From: Viridibacillus arenosi
GTDB lineage: Bacteria; Bacillota; Bacilli; Bacillales_A; Planococcaceae
DNA: 64,000 nt
Direction: 5' to 3'
NCBI RefSeq assembly: GCF_001955655.1
Contig: NZ_MSPW01000011.1
Coordinates: 62,001-126,000, forward strand
In this document: in pieces, positions 1,951-46,632 of the stretch
Layout: every line of letters starts with the position of its first letter
Numbering within the stretch: position 1 is the stretch's first letter
Program-made: the position numbers and the translations under genes
Notes under the pieces: model-generated
The model's database searches: none
What the model saw: the letters and a program-made list of their open reading frames with translations, nothing else
What the model was told of the DNA's origin: nothing

Positions 1951-2373
1951 ATGCAAATAGCTTTAGCGAATCCAACTCATATCTTTGAAGTTGTGCATTT
2001 CTTTAACGTAAATTTAGATCGTAAAAACAGTGCAGTTTTTTCTGATGAGTTTTTTTGTCCTCTTGGAATTAAAGCAGCTATAAGAAGAAAGCAAATGATA
2101 GTGGCAACAGTAGAAGGTCAAGTAGTAGGAGCATTTCGGTTTTACCGTAAAAAAACACAAAATAAAATTTCTTTGTATCAATTTGCGATAAGCGAGGTTT
2201 ATCGTGGTCAAGGGTTGTTAAAAAAGATGTTAAATACGATTAATGATTTACCAATTGTTGCACTATGTCCGACTGATTCCAATTTTAATGAGTATTATTA
2301 TAAATCAGGTTGGAAATTACAAGAACAAAGTGATGTGTTCAAAATCTGGGTTTTTAGTAACGAAGGACGTTGA
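1951..2373 (+). CDS. GNAT-family N-acetyltransferase
   Basis: This 140-residue single-domain protein carries the GNAT signature around residues 75-95, where the strand ISLYQFAISEVYRGQGLLKK contains the acetyl-CoA pyrophosphate loop (RGQGLL, a Q/RxxGxG/A-type motif). The C-terminal part, NFNEYYYKSGWK, matches the usual last helix-strand. The ribosome site GGGGGAGA lies 6-12 bases before ATG. It follows the serine hydrolase closely and precedes a GyrI-like gene, so the three may form one transcript. Substrate unknown. Confidence 0.8.
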   Translation: MQIALANPTHIFEVVHFFNVNLDRKNSAVFSDEFFCPLGIKAAIRRKQMIVATVEGQVVGAFRFYRKKTQNKISLYQFAISEVYRGQGLLKKMLNTINDLPIVALCPTDSNFNEYYYKSGWKLQEQSDVFKIWVFSNEGR

Positions 2374-2423
2374 AGTAGTACTCAAACATAATGAAAATAA
2401 TATATAGAGGGGAACAAAAACTA

Positions 2424-3050
2424 TTGAAATACGAATGGAGAAAACAAGAGAAGAATTTATATATCCCAAAACAAAAACCTGAACTTGTAACAATTCCAGA
2501 ACAGAAATTTTTTTTGATAAAGGGAAAAGGAAATCCAAATGAGCACGAATTCGCTGAAAAGATAGGTGTACTTTATTCTTTGGCTTATGCGGTCAGAATG
2601 ATGCCGAAGCAAGGATACACTCCAGATGGTTATTATGAATATACTGTATATCCATTAGAAGGCATTTGGGATTTAACAGAAAAGGGAAGGGAATTGGATA
2701 CATTAAATAAAGATGAATTATTATATACTATTATGATAAGACAACCAGATTTTGTAACAACTGAAATAGTAGAGAGAGCATTTGAAAACGTAGAAAAAAA
2801 GAAACCACATCCATTCCTAAATGATGTAACGTTCGATATATTTCAAGATGGTTTATCTGTTCAGATGCTTCATATTGGTCCATATGATGACGAGCCTAAA
2901 AGTTTTGAATTAATGAATGAATTTATAAAAAATAATAATCTTGAAAGAACTTCATTACAACATAGGGAAATATATCTTTCAGATTTTAGAAAAGTTGAAC
3001 CTGCAAAGTTAAAAACAGTTTTGAGATACAAGGTTAAGTCAATAGAATAG
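2424..3050 (+). CDS. GyrI-like small-molecule-binding protein
   Basis: The protein begins KYEWRKQEKNLYIPK and later contains QMLHIGPYDDEPKSF, the loop typical of GyrI/SbmC-like (COG4832-type) stand-alone ligand-binding proteins. In this fold two repeated halves form a cavity for amphipathic compounds; some members hydrolyse cyclopropane-type drugs or act as effectors. I place the start at TTG 2424 (208 residues). It lies 11 bases after the strong ribosome site AGAGGGG, and the protein then starts where the family usually starts. An in-frame ATG at 2391 lies upstream of that ribosome site and is less likely. No DNA-binding domain is attached. Confidence 0.75.
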   Translation: MKYEWRKQEKNLYIPKQKPELVTIPEQKFFLIKGKGNPNEHEFAEKIGVLYSLAYAVRMMPKQGYTPDGYYEYTVYPLEGIWDLTEKGRELDTLNKDELLYTIMIRQPDFVTTEIVERAFENVEKKKPHPFLNDVTFDIFQDGLSVQMLHIGPYDDEPKSFELMNEFIKNNNLERTSLQHREIYLSDFRKVEPAKLKTVLRYKVKSIE

Positions 3051-41692: not shown

Positions 41693-41903
41693 ATTAGGCA
41701 TGTTTAAATTTTTGTATGAGAGCAGATAATTTAACTGGTGGGAAAATGTTAGTAAATATTCGATATCATTGTGTCATATACATAAAATATTAAAACGATT
41801 TATATAATAGTTTAAGGTTATTTTCAATAGTATGTACACTACGACAGAAATCAATGTGATGAGGTTTTTAAAGCATAATTTTAATAATGAAAAGGAGGAT
41901 ATA

Positions 41904-42227
41904 ATGAGAATAGGATACCGTTCTATTTCCATAATAGTTAACTTATTTCTAGGCTATTTATCTTTTTTTATAGGTTTATTATGGTTCATGACAATAATGT
42001 ATGCATCGCATTCTTTTGGATTGAGAGTAGACTCTACTTTCGATGATGGTTTACTAGGTGTCTTTTTAATAATATCTATCATTGCAACAGCTATTTATAT
42101 TCCTGCCTGCATTAATTTAAATAGTATAATAAGGCCGAAATTGGAAATGAGAAAATGGAGTTTTATTGCTTTTATATCCATAGTTTTTATCCTTGGTTTT
42201 TGTATTATTACCTTAACTATACAGTGA
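41904..42227 (+). CDS. small membrane protein with three helices
   Basis: From ATG 41904 (after AAAGGAGG) the 107-residue product has three hydrophobic segments: SISIIVNLFLGYLSFFIGLL, LLGVFLIISIIATAIYIPAC and SFIAFISIVFILGFCIITL. The frame is open to 41832 but the upstream codons lack a ribosome site. It ends just before the riboflavin leader. No known domain. Confidence 0.55.
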   Translation: MRIGYRSISIIVNLFLGYLSFFIGLLWFMTIMYASHSFGLRVDSTFDDGLLGVFLIISIIATAIYIPACINLNSIIRPKLEMRKWSFIAFISIVFILGFCIITLTIQ

Positions 42228-42411
42228 ATTGGTGTTGGTAAATAAAAAAAATTACATTTTCTCATGACATGTAACAGGTCAATATAGCCCAACATATCAA
42301 GCTTTTAAGACTAATCTCTTTTTAGTATGTTCTCGATCAATCCAATATAAATTAAAAAACCTCTAGTTTTTAAATAAGTAAAGTGCTATGGTATTTACAT
42401 ACAATATAATA

Positions 42412-42539
42412 ATCCTTCGGGGTCGGGTGAAATTCCCAATCGACGGTGATAAAGTAAAACTTTTAAGCCCGTGAGCCTTTTTTAGGCAGGATATGGTGAG
42501 AATCCAAAGCCGACAGTATAGTCTGGATGGGAGAAGGAT
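42412..42539 (+). promoter_or_regulatory. FMN riboswitch, copy 1 of 3
   Basis: The 128-base element has the full RFN/FMN aptamer: P1 ATCCTTC/GAAGGAT, GGGGTCGGGTGAAATTCCC, CGACGGTGAT, AGCCCGTGAG, and AAAGCCGACAGTATAGTC with TGGATGGGAGAAGGA. It binds FMN and, when occupied, favours the terminator at 42618. It differs from copies 2 and 3 in the P3 loop (GCC-TTTTTTA-GGC) and in a smaller P2 stem. Confidence 0.97.
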
Positions 42540-42617
42540 GTAAAGAATATCAAGGTCTTATTAAATTTATGTAGATTTAATAGGTTTATTTAGCATTGAT
42601 AATTTATGTCTCCTATC

Positions 42618-42647
42618 AAACTCCGTAGTGTTCTATGGGGTTTTTTT
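42618..42647 (+). terminator. terminator of riboswitch copy 1
   Basis: AAACTCCGTAG-tgtt-CTATGGGGTTT followed by TTTT. The strand before it (ATAGGTTTATTTAG, repeated after each aptamer) is the candidate antiterminator partner. Confidence 0.9.
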
Positions 42648-42692
42648 GATGCCCTAAAACTTATTTGTATTGTTGTTAATTTCATATGTAAT

Positions 42693-42820
42693 ATCCTTCG
42701 GGGTCGGGTGAAATTCCCAATCGACGGTGATGAAGTAAAACTTCTAAGCCCGTGAGCTTGATAAGAGCAGGATTTGGTGTGAGTCCAAAGCCGACAGTAT
42801 AGTCTGGATGGGAGAAGGAT
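42693..42820 (+). promoter_or_regulatory. FMN riboswitch, copy 2 of 3
   Basis: A complete 128-base FMN aptamer with P1 ATCCTTC/GAAGGAT and all conserved core segments. It differs from copy 3 at only about six positions. It begins 45 bases after the terminator of copy 1. Confidence 0.97.
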
Positions 42821-42900
42821 GTAGAGAATATCGAAGTCTTATTAAAAATAAAGTATTTTAATAGGTTTATTTGCTTATGATATTTTACATAACTCCTATC

Positions 42901-42930
42901 AAACTCCGTAGAAATCTATGGAGTTTTTTT
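42901..42930 (+). terminator. terminator of riboswitch copy 2
   Basis: AAACTCCGTAG-aaat-CTATGGAGTTT followed by TTTT, almost the same as terminator 1. Confidence 0.92.
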
Positions 42931-42952
42931 GATGGAAAAACTAAATAAGTAA

Positions 42953-43080
42953 GTCCTTCGGGGTCGGGTGAAATTCCCAATCGACGGTGATGAAGTGAAT
43001 CTTCTAAGCCCGTGAGCTTGATAAGAGCAGGATTTGGTGCGAATCCAAAGCCGACAGTATAGTCTGGATGGGAGAAGGAC
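42953..43080 (+). promoter_or_regulatory. FMN riboswitch, copy 3 of 3
   Basis: A complete 128-base aptamer with P1 GTCCTTC/GAAGGAC. The terminal pair G-C replaces the A-T of copies 1 and 2, a compensating change. It begins only 22 bases after terminator 2, too little for an independent promoter between them. Confidence 0.97.
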
Positions 43081-43160
43081 AGCTAGATTACACGCAATTC
43101 CTTTTGAAAAATAGTATTTCATTAGGTTTATTTAGCGATGCGTTTATCTAATACTCTCCT

Positions 43161-43195
43161 AAACTCCCTAATTTAATTAGAGAGTTTTTTATTTT
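43161..43195 (+). terminator. terminator of riboswitch copy 3
   Basis: AAACTCcCTAATT/AATTAGaGAGTTT followed by TTTATTTTT, ending about 23 bases before the ribD start and just before its ribosome site GGGAGG. Confidence 0.88.
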
Positions 43196-43217
43196 TCAAA
43201 AAGGGAGGTTTATCACA

Positions 43218-44303
43218 ATGCATGACGAGTATTTTATGGATTTAGCGTTGAAATTTGCAACAGTAGGTGAGGATCAAACTTCGCCCAATCCGGTAGTAGG
43301 AGCGATCATTGTAAAAGAAGGTGCTGTAGTTGGTTTTGGAGCGCATCTTAGTGCCGGTTCTCATCATGCGGAAGTACATGCACTCAATATGGCCGGGGAA
43401 AATGCTGTTGGCAGTACAATGTATGTCACATTAGAGCCTTGTAATCATTATGGTAAAACACCACCATGTACGATGGCCATTTTGAATGCAGGTATAAAAA
43501 AAGTAGTGGTAGCAACACTCGATCCAAATCCCAAAGTAGCTGGCACTGGTGTAACAAAGCTAAAGGATGCTGGCATTGAAGTGGAAGTGGGGCTTTGTGA
43601 AGTCGAAGCTGTGAAATTAAATAAAGCTTATTTTCATTTTATGAAGCAGAAGTTGCCTTTTGTTACGTTAAAGCAAGCTATTACATTGGATGGCAAGATT
43701 GCTACCGTTCATGGAAAAAATGAAAATATCACAGGTAAAGAAGTGCAGGAGGATGTTCATCGAAAAAGAGGGCAAACGGATGCGATCTTAGTTGGTGTTG
43801 GGACGGTGTTAACAGATGACCCATTACTAACAAATCGATTTACAGAAAGTAAAAAACAACCGATTCGAATCATTTTGGACACGCATTTAAGAACACCTAT
43901 AAATGCTAAGGTTATCACTGATCAAACAACGCAGACATGGATTGTTGTTGGGCTTGAAGTTACCCCTGATCATATCACCAGCTTTGCACAAGACAATGTA
44001 CAAGTAATCCAACTTAAAACAAAAACAATCGCAATCCAGGACGTCCTTCAAGAGCTGGCAAGGCGAAATATCGTCACCCTTTATGTAGAAGGGGGGCAGC
44101 GTATAAATACGAGTTTTATCATTTCAGGTCTAGTTAATGAAATGATTACTTACATAGCACCAAAACTAGTAGGTGACCATGATGGAATGGGGATGTTGGA
44201 AGATTTAGAAGTAAAAAGCATGGCTGATGCTGTCCCACTAAAACTGCAGCAAGTGGATCGAATTGGTGATGTAATTAAAGTGATTTCGGGAGTGGGGGTA
44301 TAG
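43218..44303 (+). CDS. ribD: bifunctional riboflavin deaminase/reductase RibD
   Basis: The 361-residue enzyme performs the second and third steps of riboflavin synthesis: deamination of the pyrimidine, then reduction of its ribosyl side chain with NADPH. The N-terminal deaminase domain shows the zinc site His50-Ala-Glu52 and PCNHYGKTPPC (Cys75, Cys84). The reductase domain starts near residue 148 with LPFVTLKQAITLDGKIA and has LVGVGTVLTDDPLLTNR and a C-terminal YVEGGQRINTSFI. It is the first gene of the operon and follows three FMN riboswitches. The ribosome site GGGAGG is 10 bases before ATG. Confidence 0.97.
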   Translation: MHDEYFMDLALKFATVGEDQTSPNPVVGAIIVKEGAVVGFGAHLSAGSHHAEVHALNMAGENAVGSTMYVTLEPCNHYGKTPPCTMAILNAGIKKVVVATLDPNPKVAGTGVTKLKDAGIEVEVGLCEVEAVKLNKAYFHFMKQKLPFVTLKQAITLDGKIATVHGKNENITGKEVQEDVHRKRGQTDAILVGVGTVLTDDPLLTNRFTESKKQPIRIILDTHLRTPINAKVITDQTTQTWIVVGLEVTPDHITSFAQDNVQVIQLKTKTIAIQDVLQELARRNIVTLYVEGGQRINTSFIISGLVNEMITYIAPKLVGDHDGMGMLEDLEVKSMADAVPLKLQQVDRIGDVIKVISGVGV

Positions 44304-44306
44304 CGT

Positions 44307-44945
44307 ATGTTCACAGGAATTATTGAGGCAAAAGGAAAAATTACAGAGCTGAAAAAAGATGCAGAGAGTATGAAATTTACTATTGAAGCTCAAGACATCA
44401 TGTTGGATATGCAACTTGGCGATAGTGTAGCAGTAAACGGCGTATGCCTAACCGTTTCGCATTTCACACTTCACGAATTCACGTTAGATGTCATGCCAGA
44501 AACGGTCAAAGCGACAACAATTCACTCCTTAAAAGTAGGGCAGTTGGTGAATTTAGAAAGAGCAATGGCTGCAAATGGGCGATTTGGCGGTCACTTCGTT
44601 TCAGGTCATGTTGATGGGACAGGGACTATTATCAGAAAAACAAAGCAAGCAAATGCAGTCTACATTGACATCGCTATCTCTAGAGAACTGAGTGATTTGT
44701 GTATACCAAGGGGTTCCGTAGCCATTGATGGAACAAGCTTGACGATTTTTGAAAAACATCCTGAAAAATTGACTGTATCTCTTATTCCACATACGTATCA
44801 AGAAACTATTTTTGCACTTAAAGAAACGGGACAACAAGTGAATATCGAAACAGATATGCTAGGTAAATACATTATTCATCAATTACAGAATAACGATAGT
44901 ACTTCAGCAATTACAATGGATTTTTTACAACAAAACGGATTTTAA
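44307..44945 (+). CDS. ribE: riboflavin synthase alpha subunit RibE
   Basis: The 212-residue enzyme dismutates two lumazines into riboflavin and the pyrimidine. It has two similar barrel repeats: MFTGIIEAKGKI, GDSVAVNGVCLTV, and GRFGGHFVSGHVDGTGTI; then GSVAIDGTSLTIF in the second half, ending NIETDMLGKYI. The start lies 3 bases after ribD. It works with RibH from the end of the operon. Confidence 0.96.
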   Translation: MFTGIIEAKGKITELKKDAESMKFTIEAQDIMLDMQLGDSVAVNGVCLTVSHFTLHEFTLDVMPETVKATTIHSLKVGQLVNLERAMAANGRFGGHFVSGHVDGTGTIIRKTKQANAVYIDIAISRELSDLCIPRGSVAIDGTSLTIFEKHPEKLTVSLIPHTYQETIFALKETGQQVNIETDMLGKYIIHQLQNNDSTSAITMDFLQQNGF

Positions 44946-44963
44946 AACGGGCGGTGTATAGCA

Positions 44964-46154
44964 ATGTTTCACTCAATTGAAGAAGCATTAAAGGATTTAA
45001 AAGAAGGCAAAATGATCATAGTCGTTGATGATGAAAATCGTGAAAATGAAGGGGATTTAGTAGCACTTGCAGAATATGCAACGCCAGAAAATATTAACTT
45101 TATGGCAACACATGCAAGAGGTCTAATTTGTACACCAATAACAGAAAAAATCGCAACAGAGCTCAATTTACATCCAATGGTGTCCAATAATACGGATCAC
45201 CATCAAACGGCATTTACAGTAAGTATTGATCATTGTAATGCAAAGACGGGTATTAGTGCATTTGAGCGTTCACAAACGATTCAACATTTATTGAATACCA
45301 ATGCATTAGCCGATGATTTTAAAAGACCGGGTCACGTTTTTCCGTTAGTTGCTAAAAGAAATGGCGTATTAGAAAGACCTGGTCATACAGAAGCTGCAGT
45401 TGATTTGGCGAAAGCATGCGGCGCAATTCCAGCTGGTATTATCTGTGAAATAATGGGGGATAGCGGAGAGATGTCTACTGGACAAGAGCTAATAGACTTC
45501 GCTCAAAAACATCAGTTAAAAATAATTACGATTGAAAGTTTAATTCAATATCGTTACATCCAAGAAGATCTAGTCACTAGAGCAGCTAATGTACAACTTC
45601 CTACAAGCTATGGCCATTTCAATTTGATTGGCTATGAAAACGACATCGACAAGTTCGAACATGTAGCCCTTGTAAAAGGGGATGTAAGTATTGTAGAAGC
45701 TCCGATTGTGCGCGTTCACTCATCTTGTCTAACTGGTGATATTTTTCATTCTGAAAGATGTGATTGTGGTCCTCAATTGGAACAGGCCTTAAAAGTCATC
45801 GAGACTGAAGGGGCGGGTGTTGTGTTGTATATGCAGCAAGAGGGTAGAGGTATCGGTTTGATCAATAAGCTACGTACTTATGAGTTACAAGAGCAGGGCT
45901 TTGATACAGTTGAAGCCAATGTAAAGTTGGGTTTTCCTGCAGATGCACGTGACTATGCATTAGCAGCTCAAATGCTAAGAAATTTAGGTATTTCAAAAGT
46001 TCGCTTATTAACGAACAACCCAGATAAAGTACAAAGCCTAAAAGCATATGGCATTGAAGTTGTCGAAAGATTGCCAATTGAAATTGAAGCTGTAGCAAGC
46101 AATTTATTTTATTTAGAAACTAAAAAAGAAAAGATGAATCATCTTATTTCGTAA
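44964..46154 (+). CDS. ribBA: bifunctional DHBP synthase/GTP cyclohydrolase II RibBA
   Basis: The 396-residue fusion makes both precursors. The N-terminal half (1-200) is 3,4-dihydroxy-2-butanone-4-phosphate synthase, with the acidic loop [11 protein letters not shown] (residues 22-32) and [16 protein letters not shown]. The C-terminal half is GTP cyclohydrolase II, with zinc cysteines in [17 protein letters not shown] (about 255, 266, 268) and [11 protein letters not shown]. It follows ribE by 18 bases. In Bacillus the gene is also called ribA. Confidence 0.96.
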
Positions 46155-46167
46155 AGGGGAGCTTAAA

Positions 46168-46632
46168 ATGGGAAAAGTATTTGAAGCACAATTAATTGGA
46201 ACAGATTTAAAAATTGGTATTGTAGTAGGTAGGTTTAATGAGTTTATCACAAGTAAATTACTAGGTGGCGCAATGGACGGCTTAGTACGACATGGCGTTT
46301 CAGAAGACAATATTGATGTTGCGTGGGTACCTGGTGCATTTGAAGTGCCCTTTATAGCAAAGCAAATGGTAGAGAAAGGTGACTACGATGCCGTAATAGG
46401 TTTGGGGACGGTTATACGTGGTTCCACATCCCATTATGATTATGTGTGCAATGAAGCAGCAAAAGGAATTGCCAATGTTTCGTTAAATACAAATGTACCC
46501 GTTATTTTCGGTATAGTCACAACAGAAAATATTGAACAAGCAATCGAACGCTCAGGTACGAAATCAGGCAATAAAGGCTATGATTCTGCAGTTGCTGCAA
46601 TTGAGATGGCTAATTTAAAGCGTCTATTTTAA
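46168..46632 (+). CDS. ribH: 6,7-dimethyl-8-ribityllumazine synthase RibH
   Basis: The 154-residue enzyme condenses the pyrimidine and butanone phosphate into lumazine and forms a large icosahedral capsid. Conserved parts: [54 protein letters not shown] with the catalytic His near residue 89, and [19 protein letters not shown]. It is the last gene of the operon, 13 bases after ribBA. Confidence 0.97.

Follow-up and report, generated by a model that had tools for sequence, protein, structure and literature searches.

The window, a 64,000-nucleotide stretch of Viridibacillus arenosi DNA, carries three FMN riboswitches in a row in front of a riboflavin operon. Is this array real, do its units act in series on one transcript, and what would three units achieve that one does not? 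Our preferred reading, to which we assign a probability of roughly 0.75, is that the array is a serial, pseudo-cooperative FMN off-switch. Transcription would start at one promoter before unit 1, and the resulting single leader RNA would contain all three complete riboswitches. Within a unit, polymerase would first make the aptamer, probably pause at a NusG-type TTATTT that follows a hairpin, and then reach the terminator. Bound FMN would hold the aptamer and let the terminator form, while without FMN the aptamer strands would pair at or just before the terminator 5' arm and transcription would continue, such that ribD-ribE-ribBA-ribH would be reached only by transcripts escaping all three terminators. 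Extra units probably arose by unequal recombination between aptamers, copying upstream platforms and sparing the gene-proximal one, and would have been kept by selection. Aptamers, terminators, TTATTT words, their positions, their conservation and the platform pattern come from the sequence; promoter use, pausing, the FMN response, serial termination, the recombination route and the benefit are what we infer.

The riboswitch array and its conservation

The FMN riboswitch model RF00050 matches the window three times over the full model (E values 7.1e-26 to 4.8e-25), at 111–114 bits against a gathering score of 66.2 bits (Table 1). By sequence and secondary structure, all three units therefore lie above the curated score, and they stand where FMN riboswitches are expected, before riboflavin biosynthesis or transport genes, with ribD-ribE-ribBA-ribH downstream (43218–46632). 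A mechanical terminator scan of the window lists terminators 1 and 2 (42618–42643 and 42901–42926); terminator 3 (43161–43187) is absent from that list and is shown by a second terminator finder and by folding. Thus the tandem of three RFN aptamers, each with a terminator, ahead of ribDEBAH, which an earlier note had read from the letters, is borne out by RF00050, the terminator finders and the gene profiles, and the coordinates given there were correct to within a few bases. With three aptamers and three terminators in series, and a single transcript predicted, the locus corresponds in architecture to the tandem pseudo-cooperative riboswitch as defined in the covered part of a 2022 survey (Sherlock et al., PMC9481103), which places FMN among the tandems expected to behave in this way. 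Among the 80 RibD matches listed, the nearest named relative is Viridibacillus arvi DSM 16317 (87% identical), and the remaining ones, from a contig scan, are distant bacteria.

Table 1. Positions in the window of the riboswitch units, the predicted regulatory elements and the rib genes
Feature	Position	Strand	Evidence
Extended -10-like element TGCTATGGT, probable single leader promoter (predicted)	42384..42392	+	6/8 consensus positions
FMN riboswitch aptamer, unit 1	42409..42542	+	RF00050 111.2 bits, full length
TTATTT after predicted hairpin, platform 1, like NusG pause motif TTNTTT	42586..42591	+	motif and fold
CTCCTATC, predicted antiterminator strand, unit 1	42610..42617	+	9 contiguous pairs with GATGGGAG, duplex -14.4 kcal/mol, folds
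Intrinsic terminator 1 and T run	42618..42647	+	11-bp stem, -12.7 kcal/mol
FMN riboswitch aptamer, unit 2	42690..42823	+	RF00050 114.2 bits, full length
TTATTT pause-like motif, platform 2	42867..42872	+	motif and fold
CTCCTATC, predicted antiterminator strand, unit 2	42893..42900	+	8 contiguous pairs, folds
Intrinsic terminator 2 and T run	42901..42930	+	11-bp stem, -13.5 kcal/mol
FMN riboswitch aptamer, unit 3 (gene-proximal)	42950..43083	+	RF00050 111.2 bits, full length
TTATTT pause-like motif, platform 3	43128..43133	+	motif and fold
Intrinsic terminator 3 and T run, weaker than 1 and 2	43161..43190	+	-7.3 kcal/mol, one stem mismatch
Ribosome binding site AGGGAGG of ribD	43202..43208	+	read by eye; complementary to terminator 3 5' arm
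ribD	43218..44303	+	TIGR00326, 377 bits
ribE, riboflavin synthase	44307..44945	+	TIGR00187, 245 bits
ribBA	44964..46154	+	NF006803, 607 bits
ribH, lumazine synthase	46168..46632	+	TIGR00114, 195 bits

An assembly artefact of a single riboswitch is ruled out. In the window genome (G000), the aptamer copies differ pairwise at 14, 20 and 11 of 134 positions and the platform copies at 23, 45 and 42 of 97–99 positions. The triplet is also present in the own assemblies of the two congeneric genomes compared, G001 and G002, and hence in all three covered genomes of this Viridibacillus-type genus. Since the copies differ and both relatives carry the triplet, one riboswitch was not assembled three times.

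G000 and G002 differ at 67 of 137 fourfold sites in ribD and at 32 of 67 in ribE, and their regions 60–400 bases upstream align poorly (145 of 269 positions differ, with 142 gap columns). Aptamers 1, 2 and 3 differ between the same two genomes at 8, 8 and 13 of 134 positions, and platforms 1, 2 and 3 at 16, 17 and 8 of 114. By this comparison, all three units of the genus are conserved and under constraint. Platforms in the same position differ by 7–15% between G000 and G002 and by 23–46% from one another within G000; within G002, platforms 1 and 2 differ at just 16 of 98 positions. For these two genomes, the aptamers fail to separate the between-species comparison of same positions from the within-genome one. 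In a tree of sampled units from across the family (a quick method with SH-aLRT support, many of whose forks are open), the first units of the three species cluster together (99), as do their third units (96), while unit 2 of G002 falls in the unit 1 group (96). This grouping indicates that the triplet most likely predates the split of the genus, units 1 and 2 having been homogenised to some extent. In G002, an insert of about 60 bases follows terminator 2, between units 2 and 3 (L137); it is absent in G000 and G001.

Spread and growth of FMN arrays in the family

The earlier note proposed a search of related genomes with RF00050. We searched 261 genomes of the family (Planococcaceae), an order-level search giving the same 261, and counted as tandem any matches over the cut-off whose starts lie at most 700 bases apart. 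At least two FMN aptamers stand in tandem in 110 of the 261 genomes, so that a single FMN riboswitch, taken in the note to be the rule, is not firmly so in this family. By longest run, 94 genomes have a doublet, 13 a triplet, two (G067, G069) an array of four and one (G054) an array of five; at least three are thus found in 16 of 261 genomes, belonging to 8 of 19 genera. These numbers rest on 193 genomes that were tabulated and 67 that were judged by eye, the latter with no close pair, G012 having no match; G071, in which a further aptamer is cut by N, is counted as three. Six sub-cut-off "pairs" of FMN matches (G087, G093, G102, G104, G111, G183) were dropped from the tandem counts. In G111 (L147, 2436–2728), one FMN aptamer has a 163-nt insert in a variable stem and still scores 95.4 bits. 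The weak matches in the other five genomes (L143–L146, L148) look similarly split or decayed, with a good 3' half and a displaced or lost 5' half, and we infer that these are single split aptamers too. A riboflavin synthase-like frame lies downstream of the weak match in L143, with no ribD between.

The longest array, in G054, comprises five complete FMN riboswitches before ribD at a spacing of 201–202 bases (L123, 2021–2945; G054:C1:1208220-1209144). Four-unit arrays precede ribD in G069 (L124, 1985–2704), in G067 (L125, 1997–2717) and, with one unit cut by N, in G071 (L126). The contigs carrying the G054 and G069 arrays are 4.17 Mb and 3.96 Mb long, which makes a short-read collapse or expansion of the arrays unlikely there. 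For anatomy, we sampled 31 arrays with 82 units, namely all 16 with at least three units and 15 of the 94 doublets. G040 has a partial second copy of its array and of the beginning of ribD, at a distance of 5 kb from the first copy and beside a run of N (L127, 7055–7524); it is otherwise identical by eye to the first, may be a recent duplication or an assembly error, and was left out of the unit counts. Read by eye, the first gene of the operon is ribE-like (MFTGI...) and not ribD in sampled arrays of g6, g7, g9, g14, g17 and g19; across the sampled arrays the first operon gene varies while the FMN array stays.

FMN triplets as such are known from computation, and the window triplet is true and conserved. 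In the covered sections of the two relevant surveys, the first (PMC9481103) counts 31 FMN doublets and four triplets, and the second, from 2025 (PMC12452182), reports FMN triplets before ribE, ribB and ribH, with 13% triplets and 87% doublets. The assertion that no FMN triplet had been described was therefore wrong, and the window array may be among those already counted. Both surveys deal, as we do, with rows of complete FMN riboswitches of one class ahead of riboflavin genes; in contrast to the present analysis, their covered sections give FMN counts and neither anatomy nor tests, and they contain no four- or five-unit FMN array, pause motif or expansion pattern. A limited search of the open-access literature, together with the same parts of the surveys, revealed no published array of four or five FMN units, and that search found nothing relevant on RFN tandems or on Lysinibacillus FMN riboswitches. 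Added here are the family-wide spread, the four- and five-unit arrays, a pause-like motif shared by nearly all sampled units, a platform pattern that fits crossing-over and an upper bound on steepness. The two-unit leaders of the family (94 of 261 genomes) have like units before ribD or ribE, as seen in the 15 sampled, and differ from the window array in having two units instead of three. Together, arrays of one to five FMN units in one family make up a natural series in which riboswitch number can be set against leakage, set-point and steepness.

How might such arrays grow? In 13 of the 16 arrays with at least three units (the exceptions being G027, G028 and G064), the upstream platforms resemble each other more than they resemble the last one; congeners share these arrays, so that the 13 are not 13 events. 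In G054, a 72-base comparison shows no difference among the platforms of units 2–4, and the final platform is unlike them. The tree of 82 units places units 1 and 2 of the window's genus together (99), separate from its unit 3s. It also unites the last units of G040, G054, G067, G069 and G071 in one group (82) and their upstream units in another (93), in which copies from the same genome mostly cluster. Over the whole tree, the label "last" changes 18 times, compared to 24.8 times with shuffled labels (2 of 500 shuffles were as low). Crossing-over between the aptamers of misaligned copies would add an upstream platform and keep the last one. Judged from these sequences, arrays probably grow by unequal crossing-over between aptamers, with the upstream platform copied and the last untouched, and the window's units 1 and 2 seem to descend by duplication from a single ancestral upstream unit. 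The pattern suggests a simple, testable growth route for riboswitch arrays. In the same tree, units from the rib leaders of G054 (L123) and G040 (L127), both of g8, join g11 and not the two other sampled g8 genomes (L149, L150), which could reflect transfer of the rib operon or that g8 is not one clade.

Recombination of this kind could also be the whole explanation, with near-identical aptamers crossing over, units coming and going, and their number bringing little or no advantage. The range of one to five units among related genomes, the recent near-identical copies in G054, G067, G069 and G132, and the platform pattern itself, which is compatible with crossing-over, all agree with this. However, all three units have stayed conserved in the genus over a distance at which G000 and G002 differ at roughly half of their fourfold sites. 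A useless copy could have lost FMN binding or its terminator without harm, yet none of the genus's nine units shows decay, and a terminator is found in 79 of the 82 sampled units. We regard a mere by-product as an unlikely alternative to a selected off-switch. On the latter reading, the longer arrays of relatives, with up to five units, look like a tighter, lower-set off-switch growing by recombination.

What three units in series would confer

We modelled the array as n identical, independent units in series, R = (1-T)^n. Because a transcript has to pass all three terminators, leakage would be the product of three escape probabilities, and serial termination would shut the operon at lower FMN than one unit does. 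With 10% termination in the absence and 90% in the presence of FMN, the calculated leak falls from 0.1 for one unit to 0.001 for three. The half-point of three units is 0.30 of that of one unit in this case, and 0.26–0.32 across cases. The cost is a maximal readthrough of 0.73 as against 0.90. The very low leakage that the earlier note expected thus follows from serial termination in the calculation.

The steep, near-digital response expected there does not. The calculated 10–90% FMN range narrows from 81-fold for one unit to 32–39-fold for three, with an apparent Hill coefficient of 1.20–1.26: 37-fold and 1.21 in the 10%/90% case, 32-fold and 1.26 with ideal terminators. A near-digital response from independent units was therefore rejected, as even 50 units give a calculated 22-fold range and an apparent Hill coefficient of about 1.42. 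On a log scale, maximum sensitivity does triple, from 0.5 to 0.75 per unit to 1.5 to 2.2 for three units. Within this model, the gain is in tightness and a lower set-point and not in a digital switch. The prediction of a strong gain in tightness, a lower set-point and little linear steepness tempers the usual word "digital", and a leader whose tightness is set by copy number would be useful for engineering riboflavin production. In the covered part of PMC4759541, the triple-tandem c-di-GMP-I riboswitch Bc3-5 of Bacillus thuringiensis is reported to respond more stringently than double or single versions and in a more "digital" way. Like the window array, Bc3-5 has three complete riboswitches in tandem on one leader, and it is experimentally tested; it differs in being an on-switch for another ligand, and an on-switch in series is a different case from an FMN off-switch.

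If the units differed in affinity, pausing or terminator strength, the array would widen the FMN range and not sharpen it. Affinities spread 1:10:100 would extend the calculated log-scale range from 111-fold to 983-fold. The terminator energies do differ (-12.7, -13.5 and -7.3 kcal/mol), and platform 3 is unlike platforms 1 and 2. Against this, the aptamers are alike (11–20 differences in 134 positions) and have like scores, and we consider a graded response distinctly unlikely.

Switching, pausing and the leader transcript

In units 1 and 2, GATGGGAG at the aptamer 3' end is predicted to pair with CTCCTATC just before the terminator, and CGGGGU of the aptamer 5' strand is predicted to be able to pair with the terminator 5' arm. 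Full-length minimum-energy folding of either unit yields the predicted antiterminator helix and the terminator at once, so that the modelled structures offer no clean either-or switch at equilibrium. Switching of unit 3 is less clear in these models: its minimum-energy fold is the terminated form whether or not the P1 helix is enforced, and the alternative pairing is weak. Across 79 units, complementarity between the terminator 5' arm and the aptamer 5' strand averages 14.3, compared to a shuffled mean of 10.1, with 23 of the 79 singly reaching 5%. In a full-length equilibrium fold of the array, 51 of 252 pairs join different units.

A terminator is called in 79 of the 82 units of the 31 arrays, a count inflated by one or more false calls, as in G259 unit 2, where the finder picked sequence ahead of the true terminator; 20 sets of dinucleotide shuffles gave a mean of 8.6 and a maximum of 14. 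TTNTTT precedes the terminator in 78 of 82 units (300 shuffled sets: mean 37.7, maximum 52); where no terminator was called (three units), the scan covered the entire platform. TTATTT with A, C or G after it occurs in 61 of 82 (shuffles: mean 7.4, maximum 16). Since the units are related, these three counts show conservation and not independent events. TTNTTT is missing from four units, G071 unit 3, G034 unit 1, G058 unit 1 and G094 unit 2. In the three g14 triplets, the upstream units carry TTATTA or TTATTG at the place of TTATTT and otherwise just a T run further 5'.

As described in the covered part of PMC12288461, the B. subtilis ribD and fmnP riboswitches terminate more in response to FMN when NusG pauses polymerase at TTNTTT, N81 and T82 of NusG read the motif, and the motif alone is insufficient for pausing. 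NusG of the window genome has N81 and T82, and three of three window units combine TTNTTT with a predicted upstream hairpin, the sequence features of a NusG-dependent pause site. The B. subtilis leaders share with the window an FMN aptamer and, as predicted for the window, a NusG-dependent pause before the terminator decision and attenuation of riboflavin genes; they differ in having one riboswitch per leader, compared to three modules here. From their sequence, the window units look like complete kinetic modules, in which polymerase would pause ahead of the terminator.

The last unit could act at a second level, units 1 and 2 terminating and unit 3 also, or mainly, hiding the ribosome binding site. 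A duplex between the terminator 3 5' arm and this site has an energy of -11.2 kcal/mol, and platform-to-site energies in the genus's three genomes are -11.4, -12.5 and -14.3, values that 8%, 3% and 5% of 60 shuffles attain. According to the parts of the sources covered, two-mechanism tandems exist in other riboswitch classes (PMC9481103) and B. subtilis fmnP is governed at both levels (PMC12288461). However, such pairing is not general, being at or below 5% of shuffles in just 4 of the 27 arrays with an identified start codon (of 31), and terminator 3 shows both parts of an intrinsic terminator, the stem and the T run. Control at two levels is, in our judgement, improbable.

We give even less credence to coupled units, in which passing one terminator would make passing the next more likely and the decision would be all-or-none at the first. 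Polymerase that had passed terminator 1 would leave its 3' arm unpaired and free for the 5' arm of terminator 2. These arms can form 11 pairs at -12.5 kcal/mol, compared to -13.5 for hairpin 2 itself; for the 3' arm of terminator 2 and the 5' arm of terminator 3, the energy is -8.0, compared to -7.3 for hairpin 3 itself. If true, coupling would provide an all-or-none decision that independent units cannot give. Among scorable doublets, arm-to-arm complementarity is mostly absent, with a run of at least 6 in 2 of 13. For the step to the last unit, just 4 of 15 longer arrays reach a run of at least 7, and three of these belong to the window's genus. The complementarity may be a mere echo of duplication.

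On the preferred reading, one promoter would drive the whole leader. The candidate TGCTATGGT sits 25 nt before aptamer 1 and occurs as the same element in the same place in G001 and G002. No -35 element is evident there by eye, and a generic sigma-70 scan returned no plus-strand promoter within 41800–43300. An element like TGNTATAAT with at least 6/8 matches precedes unit 1 in 29 of 31 sampled arrays and 6 of 51 later units, although a score of 6, which is that of the window's own element, is weak when taken alone, the shuffled mean being 5.5. At 7/8 or better, the figures are 11 of 31 first units and 0 of 51 later ones. First units score 6.4 on average (shuffled 5.5) and later units 4.6 (shuffled 5.0), and the best TGNTATAAT match begins 24–27 bases before the aptamer in 22 of 31 first units. 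A promoter-like element before unit 1 and not before later units fits serial action, and the arrangement of the units in series on one transcript, as the earlier note had it, is most likely on this evidence. That internal promoters bypass units 1 and 2 and make the modules independent is highly improbable: the roughly 40 nt between terminator 1 and aptamer 2 hold a poor -10-like match (5/8), but the scan of the 51 later units lends internal promoters no support, and compact arrays (spacing about 200) leave some 8–10 nt between the T run and the next aptamer.

The window genome has a fourth FMN aptamer (G000:C11; L139, about 2000–2500, minus strand), which is single. This riboswitch also has TTATTT and a terminator, and the start of the gene that follows reads by eye like a probable riboflavin transporter of the RibU/FmnP type.
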